Made by a program: the position numbers and the translations under genes. A stretch of 20,323 nucleotides of DNA from a virus. The stretch lies in IMG/VR virus record IMGVR_UViG_3300035698_012946, positions 1 to 20,323 of that record. One strand, written 5' to 3'. This document shows, piece after piece, positions 1,826 to 4,025 of the stretch; positions within the stretch are counted from its first letter, which is position 1, and every line of letters begins with the position of its first letter. Under the pieces are notes generated by a model. That model was not told the DNA's origin. It was given only the letters and a program-made list of their open reading frames with translations, and ran no database searches.

Positions 1826-2188
1826 ATGAAAGCAGAAGAAATACAATTAGCCCAAGATTGGGTATTGATTAAACCAGATAAACTTAAGACATTTAAGGAA
1901 ACAGAGTTTGTACCTGTCCTACCAAAAGAAAATATGAATGTTGTTAAGGACGAGGAAGACGAACTTGACCCAATACAAGAGGTTGAAGAGATCGAGAGAA
2001 CTTTAGCATTTGTTATTCAACGAGGAACTATAGTAGCAATAGGACCAGGTGAAAGTATGTATGAAGTAGGAGATAGTGTGTTTATTAAACATCTCACTGG
2101 TGTAGACTTCCAATGGGTTGGTAGTCCTGCTAAAAGTACTTGTCCTAAGTTAATGAAGAAGTATGAGATTATAGGTAAAGTAAAATAG
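1826..2188 (+). CDS. GroES-like phage co-chaperonin
   Basis: The 120-residue protein has the outline of a GroES/Cpn10-fold subunit. An N-terminal strand WVLIKPD (12-18) corresponds to the start of GroES, RGTIVAIGPG (66-75) resembles the conserved barrel strand and turn, and VGDSVFIK (81-88) resembles the next barrel strand, followed by a C-terminal EIIGKVK strand. Between residues 22 and 60 lies a longer, acidic region (EEDELDP and EEIE) in the place of the mobile and roof loops, making the protein longer than the 97 residues of E. coli GroES and nearer phage T4 gp31 (111 residues). Such proteins cap the host GroEL ring and help fold the capsid protein. No GroEL-like gene is visible here, so it would work with host GroEL. 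No Shine-Dalgarno is seen. Confidence 0.72.
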   Translation: MKAEEIQLAQDWVLIKPDKLKTFKETEFVPVLPKENMNVVKDEEDELDPIQEVEEIERTLAFVIQRGTIVAIGPGESMYEVGDSVFIKHLTGVDFQWVGSPAKSTCPKLMKKYEIIGKVK

Positions 2189-2519: not shown

Positions 2520-2553
2520 AAACGTAACCTTTATAAATTATTCTCGTAGAATA
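2520..2553 (+). promoter_or_regulatory. Promoter-like motif, copy A (AAACGTAAC box, TATA, then hairpin)
   Basis: AAACGTAAC at 2520-2528 is followed by TATAAA and a perfect small hairpin (TATTCT / AGAATA with loop CGT, 2539-2553). A hand alignment with 6083-6117 gives about 26 identities over 35 columns with one gap, including an exact 9-base box and a shared CGTAG. It sits in a non-coding region ahead of a structured stretch, so it is probably a phage-specific promoter or operator. It does not look like a host-type -35/-10 pair. Function is inferred. Confidence 0.45.
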
Positions 2554-2838
2554 AGTATTCACACGTAAGGCAGTGAATATATCGGGCGCTTAGAAATGAG
2601 CAGAAAATCATGAAAATGAGCCATTAACTTGCATTTAAACGATGTTTGGACCAGATATTTTACCTACTGCACCTCAGGAGCAGGGTCTAAAAACAGACCG
2701 TCGGGAATTCAAAATTTAAAGAAGGGAGGGATAAGTGACAGATATAATTGTTATATACCTTTTTACTTAGTTAATCTCTTTCGCTAATCGCTCACTCGAT
2801 TTAGCTTCGCTATTTAAAGGTATATTTCTTTTCTTTTA
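2530..2838 (+). ncRNA. Candidate structured non-coding RNA of about 300 nt
   Basis: About 400 bases (2512-2915) carry no convincing gene but many hairpins. In order: TATTCT/AGAATA (2539-2553); TATTCAC/GTGAATA (2556-2562 with 2573-2579); TGGACC pairing with GGTCTA (2647-2652 with 2684-2689) around CTGC/GCAG (2667-2670 with 2680-2683); the alternative GGTCT/AGACC (2684-2688 with 2695-2699); ATATAA/TTATAT (2742-2756); and a 10-bp stem ATATACCTTT/AAAGGTATAT (2753-2762 with 2816-2825) holding GCTAATCG/CGATTTAGC (2783-2805). A promoter-like motif lies at the left end and a T-rich tract at the right, as expected of a transcription unit. A 25-codon ORF (2642-2719, reading MFGPDILPTAP at its start) and an 11-codon GTG ORF (from 2735, after AGGGAGGG) lie inside; they may be chance or leader peptides. 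Covariation is needed to settle this. Confidence 0.42.
2753..2838 (+). terminator. Long hairpin followed by T-rich tract, possible terminator
   Basis: A perfect 10-bp inverted repeat (2753-2762 with 2816-2825) encloses a second hairpin of 8 bp with one bulged T (2783-2790 with 2797-2805). The 3' arm runs into TTTCTTTTCTTTT (2825-2837). The direct repeat TTCGCTA at 2780-2786 and 2806-2812 also lies here. The large loop is atypical for a simple intrinsic terminator, so it may instead be the 3' domain of the RNA above. Confidence 0.4.
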
Positions 2839-2840
2839 TA

Positions 2841-3253: not shown

Positions 3254-3261
3254 TTGACTTT

Positions 3262-3320
3262 AAGTAGGGGAGTATTGCTTAGTAGCAGAAGATAATTTAG
3301 CACAGCGATCTCCCCTTCTT
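3262..3320 (+). other. Structured intergenic element with a 10-bp closing stem
   Basis: AAG-T-AGGGGAG (3262-3272) pairs with CTCCCCT-T-CTT (3310-3320), giving 10 bp with one T-T mismatch. Inside is a small hairpin TGCT-TAGT-AGCA (3276-3287). The stem is GC-rich compared with its surroundings. A weak T-rich run follows (CTTTAT), so it may be a terminator for the 2.9-3.25 kb genes or a processing or leader structure for the gene at 3364. The gap 3254-3363 holds no ORF. Confidence 0.45.
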
Positions 3321-3363
3321 TATACCCTGGTTGTTAGAAAGTTATGTTTAAAATATAAAATTT

Positions 3364-3864
3364 ATGAGTGAATTAAAAGGAGAACCAAGTAGTGAAACTC
3401 CAGTTGAAACAGATCGTAGACCAACGATGTGGACTGGTGATTTTGAGAGAAATTTAAAATTGTTATTTAAAGTATTTAAAGATAAATACAATTTAGTATT
3501 AGATGCAGAAATTAATTTACCTAGAGTTATTTCAGGTAAAGAAAGTTTTTATTATGTATTATTCCTTAAAGTAGAAGGAGATAAAGTATTACCATTGTTA
3601 AGGATGATAAAAGAACTTGATGAAGATATAAGTAAAAATGCATTGTATTATGATGCTTTCGAAGCTACTTTAAAATTATTGACAAGTGATGCTACAATCA
3701 AAGAGATATATGATAAAGCGGTCTCTTCCGAACAGCCTGCTCCAGAAGGGAAAAGTGATGTTGATATACAAGAACCCCTTGGATCAAAAGATGTTGTTGA
3801 TAGCCCAAAAGTTACTGGGGAAGGACTTGGTGGAGATGAAAAAGAAACCAAAAGTAAAAAGTAG
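3364..3864 (+). CDS. Hypothetical protein with acidic, disordered tail (166 aa)
   Basis: No family is recognised. The N-terminal 25 residues and the C-terminal 45 (rich in Glu, Gly, Pro, Ser and Lys, ending KETKSKK) look disordered. The middle (about 26-120) looks folded and mainly helical, with a strand pair around SFYYVLFLKVEG. The start has the AT-rich context AAAATTTATG with no Shine-Dalgarno, as for several virion genes here. The last 29 bases overlap another ORF in the next frame. Confidence 0.65.
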   Translation: MSELKGEPSSETPVETDRRPTMWTGDFERNLKLLFKVFKDKYNLVLDAEINLPRVISGKESFYYVLFLKVEGDKVLPLLRMIKELDEDISKNALYYDAFEATLKLLTSDATIKEIYDKAVSSEQPAPEGKSDVDIQEPLGSKDVVDSPKVTGEGLGGDEKETKSKK

Positions 3865-3958
3865 CGGTAATGCAAAATATAGTCCATGGGAATGGGGGAT
3901 CAGACCAAAGAAAAATAAATCAGCGTATTCGACAAGAAAAACGGATTACATTCCTTAA
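3836..3958 (+). CDS. Small basic protein overlapping both neighbours (40 aa)
   Basis: A longer reading frame is open upstream, but the ATG at 3836 is the best start: it is preceded by GGTGGAG and removes most of the overlap with the gene ending at 3864. The product begins MKKKPKVKSSGNAKYSPWEW and continues basic (GIRPKKNKSAYSTRKTDYIP), with two Trp residues and no hydrophobic segment. It overlaps the next ORF by 89 bases in another frame, so at most one of the pair may be real. The balanced, Trp-containing sequence makes this one plausible. Confidence 0.45.
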   Translation: MKKKPKVKSSGNAKYSPWEWGIRPKKNKSAYSTRKTDYIP

Positions 3959-4025
3959 AGTATTTGTGTGGATCATATTTGCAATATTGCTTAGTTCGAT
4001 AGTTGGTAATTTAATAATAAACTAA
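3870..4025 (+). CDS. Small tail-anchored or signal-anchor membrane protein (51 aa)
   Basis: An ORF from ATG at 3870 to TAA at 4023-4025. The N-terminal half is strongly basic (RKINQRIRQEKR, 14-25) and the C-terminal half is one hydrophobic helix (FLKVFVWIIFAILLSSIVG, 28-46) with four or five residues after it. This suggests a cytoplasmic basic head with a C-terminal membrane anchor. It begins 5 bases after the TAG of the gene ending at 3864, good operon spacing, and ends 4 bases before the next ATG. It overlaps the 40-residue ORF by 89 bases. Possible roles include a lysis accessory or membrane-bound regulator, but there is no direct evidence. Confidence 0.5.
   Translation: MQNIVHGNGGSDQRKINQRIRQEKRITFLKVFVWIIFAILLSSIVGNLIIN

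Follow-up and report, generated by a model that had tools for sequence, protein, structure and literature searches.

The longest intergenic gap in a 20,323-base IMG/VR virus record – the whole stretch of DNA analysed here, referred to as the window – very likely contains a real, conserved structured RNA, located at 2556 to ~2730. It is a member of what we call family A, for which homology, covariation, non-coding nature, association with a promoter and genomic position are shown. The overall explanation that we favour – a structured non-coding RNA family of crAss-like phages, driven by a promoter, occupying a slot at the co-chaperonin gene and acting in trans – is likely as a whole, at a probability of roughly 0.75.

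The window is a fragment of a crAss-like phage genome. Head-and-packaging PHROGs are matched by its portal, major head protein and terminase, the last sharing 50-60% identity with terminases of crAss-like phages and matching best that of the human-gut phage cr118_1 (classified as Crassvirales, Suoliviridae, Uncouvirinae). The gap extends over 404 nt (2512-2915), the flanking genes ending at 2511 and resuming at 2916; the next largest in its vicinity measures 110 nt (3254-3363). This second gap is also structured, as AAGTAGGGGAG (3262-3272) is complementary to CTCCCCTTCTT (3310-3320), a pairing that is likely the terminator behind the 47-aa ORF. The GroES-like gene of the window has no Pfam match above the cut-off. 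Elsewhere (130-777), this phage DNA carries a gene similar to CmcI/rhamnosyl O-methyltransferases (PF04989), whose homologue in L002 is positioned elsewhere relative to the other genes.

The original prediction had described a gene-poor stretch (2520-2838) with at least six hairpins, a motif at its left end and a 10-bp stem plus T-rich tract at its right end. This is confirmed, with at least seven hairpins readable in 2556-2825 (Table 1). The proposed length of ~300 nt has to be corrected to ~180-200 nt of conserved RNA, as conservation does not extend into the final ~100 nt of the interval originally flagged. The 5′ end is inferred from the promoter and the 3′ end, set at the G-rich motif, is approximate. 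As a part of the RNA, the right-hand stem failed for conservation: it was not found conserved in relatives and is possibly, at most, a local terminator. This stem is AU-rich and followed by a T-rich tract; a clear GC-rich terminator after the RNA is missing, and in several family-A members a bracketing promoter and intrinsic terminator without an ORF are not evident. Directly past the T-rich tract lies a tandem 10-nt repeat, TAGTATGTTG TAGTATGTTG TAGTAGGTATG, at 2840-2865.

Table 1. Positions of the features discussed in the text (window coordinates unless a locus is named).
Feature	Position	Strand	Remarks
GroES-like co-chaperonin gene	1826..2188	+	Slot marker; belongs to a family annotated 'putative chaperonin' in cr118_1
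Probable phage promoter, ECF-sigma-type	2524..2552	+	GTAACCTTT 2524-2532, CGTA 2545-2548; AAC-CGT spacer 16 nt
Family-A structured RNA, conserved extent	2556..2730	+	R3 covariance model match 2618-2713, 75.7 bits; RNAalifold z -6.6; 3′ G-rich motif
H1 hairpin, RNA 5′ end, TATTCAC/GTGAATA	2556..2579	+	Read from sequence
Pa stem GGC 2585-2587/GCC 2620-2622	2585..2622	+	Encloses inserted GAAA hairpin and H2; also predicted by RNAalifold
Inserted GAAA hairpin	2588-2601	+	Inside Pa
H2 hairpin TCAT/ATGA, GAAA loop	2608-2619	+	Inside Pa
P1: UAAC - UUG(C) bulge - CAUU/GAUG - GUUU	2625..2648	+	Inner pairs covary
Conserved GUUGGAUCAG-type element (TTTGGACCAG in the window)	2645..2654	+	Near-invariant among members
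P2 hairpin CTGC/GCAG	2667..2683	+	98% of cells paired; fourth pair U-A/A-U/C-G
P3 hairpin GGTCT/AGACC	2684..2699	+	Double changes in 4/4 modelled pairs
Conserved GUYGGGA and P4 3′ strand (TTCAAA)	2700..2713	+	Member comparison, RNAalifold
G-rich 3′ motif GGGAGGGATAAG	2724..2735	+	GGGnGGGA-like motif, 20-50 nt past core in members
10-bp stem and T-rich tract	2753..2840	+	Arms 2753-2762/2816-2825, 100% complementary; then TTTCTTTTCTTTTA
Two small ORFs, 65 and 47 aa	2916..3253	+	Downstream of RNA; absent from most family-A phages
Family B loci	L008:3606-3960; L033:1518-1820; L016:96-400; L081:508-800		Also L084, L049, L043, L044, L041, L229
Family C loci	L199:1412-1792; L015:5519-5930; L245:1110-1503	L199 minus	L022 also listed as C

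Homologues were found at the equivalent place in related phages. Among loci fetched through the terminase, the gap matched an intergenic region of L014 (E=3e-6) with the same gene order – GroES-like gene, gap, small ORF – and the same core was found by reading in L013, L020 and L030, each time directly past the same promoter motif. Family A was defined as a covariance-model match in which the RNA starts 22-27 nt behind a promoter, a definition that the window itself meets (75.7 bits, promoter at 2524). A model built on four members (R1) recovered L030, which was not in its training set, at E=1.5e-7. L128 was first found by a pattern scan; when R2 (five members) was run on the whole 96-kb genome, L128 ranked top, at its promoter, with E=1.7e-4 (1e-6 in a local search). 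Among loci from a second terminase search, R2 also recovered L249, L243, L225, L226 and L220, none of them used in training. Trained on all 11 distinct members, R3 matched only those 11 across 1.44 Mb of relatives, up to E=0.5.

The promoter, present ahead of 11/11 members, serves as an independent check on the model matches. The need for one is illustrated by an R2 match in L271 (E=0.0013) that was discarded since it lies inside an ORF, which shows that model E-values are rough and should not be over-read alone; weak R1/R2 matches in L036, L069 and L214 were rejected as lacking the promoter. Searching whole records (~65 crAss-like) with the covariance model gave known members only, with one family-A RNA per genome, and a second viral pattern scan added none. 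Four matches from a pattern scan of bacterial genomes look like chance. The neighbouring 105-aa and 120-aa proteins, used as queries, yielded no matches; comparing the gap with phage records at the DNA level gave chance AT-rich matches only; and an initial survey of gene gaps was useless because spurious ORFs overlie the RNAs.

From 5′ to 3′, the members generally share the layout H1; Pa with linker and H2; P1; GUUGGAUCAG; P2; P3; GUUGGGA; P4 strand; GGGnGGGAUAAG. L013, L014, L030 and L128 have 5′ hairpins equivalent to H1, with other sequences. Pa consists of three pairs, often with ACGAAAR as the linker inside, and the H2 loop is often GNRA; the P1 bulge is UUC or UUGC, and P2 follows the pattern CUGN...NCAG, with a loop ending in GG (GG(A) in members inspected by eye). 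P4 (UGGAUC/GAUCCA) is predicted by RNAalifold, and the 5′ half of the GUUGGAUCAG-type element is also able to pair with 2708-2713 (= P4). The outer part of P1 (77% paired) and P4 thus compete for the same bases; either may form, and which one does is not settled.

Folding energy of the single sequence does not contribute to the case. It is unremarkable both for 2512-2850 (z=-0.73, with 25/100 shuffles equally good) and for 2556-2725 (z=-0.92 against shuffles), and only modest for the 3′ hairpin alone (z=-2.3). This line of evidence was dropped, as the gap was not distinct from shuffled sequence, and hairpins seen in a lone sequence would therefore not have counted as evidence.

The comparison between members gives a clear answer. 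With columns shuffled in a MAFFT alignment of three full-length family-A members, RNAalifold gave z=-6.6, none of 200 shuffles being as good; for five family-A cores the value was z=-3.0, and for a TerL coding control in the same test z=+0.4. In an alignment of 11 sequences, 87.9% of the cells in paired columns pair, against 67.8 +- 2.2 in shuffles, and 32 cells carry double changes, against 11.4 +- 2.7 (a count reached in 0/500 shuffles), while slid partners give at most 11. The inner helix of P1 is 88% paired, with double changes in 3/4 pairs. Since this 11-sequence alignment was fitted to the covariance model – one model-based alignment that misplaced L128 had been replaced – the alignment-neutral MAFFT and RNAalifold test matters. 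Pa and H2 were paired by hand in ten members, at 30/30 and 20/20 positions, with Pa varying between GGC/GCC, GCC/GGC, CCC/GGG, CGU/ACG and GGU/ACC; these arms were chosen by eye, so the counts are supporting only.

Could the conservation reflect a short peptide rather than an RNA? The candidate is a 25-codon ORF (MFGPDILPTAPQEQG...), and in its favour the nucleotides around GUUGGAUCAG encode VGSG-like residues in several members. However, L013, L030 and L128 each run into an in-frame stop within 10-18 codons, the frame shifts between members without a conserved start or any shared reading frame, and the invariant bases fall on third codon positions (GGA, nCA). The peptide is thereby all but excluded.

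The promoter-like motif noticed at the left end held, though as a likely ECF-sigma-type phage promoter and not a sigma-70-like one, an assignment inferred from sequence alone. The window has a single GTAACCTTT-N12-CGTA, 100 shuffles of it have none, and a GTAACCTTTT-N-CGTA motif lies 22-27 nt ahead of all 11 family-A RNAs. In 1.1 Mb, GTAACCTTTT-N10-14-CGTAWA has 14 matches on the TerL strand vs 0 on the opposite strand, and reversed, complemented and swapped control patterns have none; over whole records, the motif counts were 11 vs 0. The AAC-to-CGT spacing of 16 nt is the spacing of ECF sigma promoters. An ECF-like sigma gene, seen as a frame of 181-213 aa with a Sigma70_r4_2 domain, is found in 7/15 crAss-like records tested, cr118_1 included (W01:58032); three records that carry the promoter (G001, G003, G006) gave no match for sigma region 4. 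That a phage sigma factor reads the promoter is a possible inference. At some sites (L013:2950-3010, L014:4800-4850, L016:900-950, L020:5450-5480), a terminator and the next promoter overlap, the -35 element GTAACCTTTT being also the 3′ arm and U-run of the upstream terminator hairpin (AAAGGTT...GTAACCTTTTTT).

In the mechanism that we propose, the RNA would be transcribed from this promoter – transcription being itself inferred – and would be the product in its own right, working in trans as an RNP or a regulatory RNA that is produced alongside the structural/late genes. The main alternative is a structured 5′ leader acting in cis, as an attenuator, in translation control, as a stabilising 5′ structure or as a put-like antiterminator for read-through. 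In its support, the RNA starts directly at the promoter in 11/11 members and an ORF follows 36-207 nt past it in 10/11; in L020, L220, L225 and L243 an ATG ORF lies 36-50 nt past the core without an obvious terminator; and a terminator-like hairpin with a U-run directly past the promoter of L030 would require antitermination. In layout, this part of L030 (801-824) resembles an attenuator, the hairpin and T-run lying ~30 nt past the promoter and being followed by a competing hairpin.

Against a leader, hardly any members have related genes downstream, leaving no cognate gene: among the 11, BLAST finds common downstream ORFs only in L030 and L249, the closest pair. This argues against a riboswitch-type leader, which family A resembles as a conserved multi-stem RNA ahead of ORFs, but from which it differs in having no conserved downstream gene. 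In addition, these genomes contain further copies of the promoter that drive genes but no family-A RNA, and the RNAs of family C (see below) end at a terminator that precedes the next promoter. Because the downstream ORFs are unrelated and promoter copies occur without the RNA, we prefer a stand-alone, trans-acting RNA. Nonetheless, the ORFs within 36-50 nt in several members keep a cis leader or a put-like antiterminator possible, and the put-like version survives since such an element needs no cognate gene. The put sites of HK022 are two short stem-loops acting in cis as antiterminator RNAs; like them, family A is a structured RNA directly downstream of a phage promoter, but it is larger, occurs once per genome in the records searched and is not found behind other copies of the promoter. 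On balance, the cis reading is less likely than not and the trans-acting one only slightly more likely than not, function being inferred without RNA data.

The RNA does not correspond to any known class that we searched for. Rfam 15 gave no matches in the window, nor any in 2480-2930 at E<=10; in six family-A loci and the family B and C loci, the same threshold returned four weak matches, none over the gathering score and 3/4 on the opposite strand. The original prediction of an undescribed structured non-coding RNA of a phage, recognisable as neither GOLLD nor ROOL, is therefore supported by the lack of Rfam matches, the homologues at the equivalent place and the covarying stems. None of the three outcomes named in advance as refuting it was met: homologues are present, stems covary and conservation does not follow the 25-codon ORF. 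The claim of a single discrete transcript remains an inference, without RNA data.

Might the phage have acquired a group I or II intron, a tRNA-like RNA or some other known catalytic or mobile RNA? In favour, TerL of relatives carries intron-like inserts and an intein-like sequence. Such a reading is very unlikely: at E<=10 neither the window nor five further family-A members gave a convincing Rfam match, no tRNA or tmRNA was found, no gene is interrupted, and the position is directly past a promoter. As to the terminases themselves, that of L003 (372-4562) is split by a ~1-kb intron-like insert (780-1829) and contains, further on, an intein-like sequence (CIAEGTKISTKEGFKNIE); those of cr118_1 and L007 are likewise interrupted.

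With GOLLD and ROOL – large ornate RNAs, many of them from phages, that form homo-oligomers (PMC12286853) – family A shares its occurrence in phage genomes as a structured non-coding RNA of unknown function. GOLLD and ROOL are far larger, at several hundred nt; family A, with its ~180-200 nt, its own promoter and slot and no Rfam match, is neither. The packaging RNA of phi29 is a phage RNA of a size similar to that of family A and comes from the same wider packaging-gene region, but there is no sequence match, the slot is beside the co-chaperonin gene and nothing ties family A to the motor.

The family-A locus lies 3-8 kb upstream of the large terminase, with a GroES-like gene at most 590 nt upstream of the RNA in the window, L014, L013, L020, L030, L225 and L243. 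The same arrangement recurs with two other RNAs, family B (L033) and family C (L015, L022, L245). The GroES-like gene is downstream of the family-B RNA in L008, L081, L084, L049, L044, L041 and L043, and downstream of the family-A RNA, 2.5 kb away, in L128; in six contigs, several of which end there, no co-chaperonin was matched. Directly upstream of the L128 RNA, this phage encodes a ferritin-like protein (863-1408; PF00210, E=7e-28).

Similarity is strong inside each of the families A, B and C but absent between them. The column-shuffle test marks B and C, too, as conserved RNAs (z=-3.2 and z=-5.7, respectively), and strong covariation is seen between two family-C members. Family B is present in cr118_1, where 3355-3976 is without annotation; in L022 and L015, family C has the order promoter, RNA, intrinsic terminator and next promoter, without an ORF. 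A distant A-B link through an AUCAACUyU-GGAGGGGA stretch (L030, L081) was not above shuffles and was rejected. That unrelated conserved RNAs fill the slot elsewhere supports the trans reading of family A, and their replacement of one another suggests a host-facing role. A bolder interpretation, a little less likely than not on present evidence, is that crAss-like phages have a dedicated non-coding RNA slot beside the co-chaperonin gene, under an ECF-type promoter, in which at least three unrelated families take each other's place. The slot would then supply a trans-acting RNA that turns over fast, probably faces the host and is made with the virion genes.

No structured RNA family for Crassvirales was found in Rfam or in the full-text literature searched, and phage records gave no match beyond cr118_1 itself, for family B. 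The RNA families, their promoter link and the slot have no counterpart in what was searched, and on that basis we rate the family-A RNA and the slot as new, the general kind – structured phage RNAs of unknown function – being already known. Crassvirales rank with the most abundant phages in the human gut. Their RNA biology and late transcription gain a defined, testable entry point in a conserved RNA that has a phage-specific promoter and whose slot is filled, in relatives including the human-gut phage cr118_1, by two unrelated RNAs.
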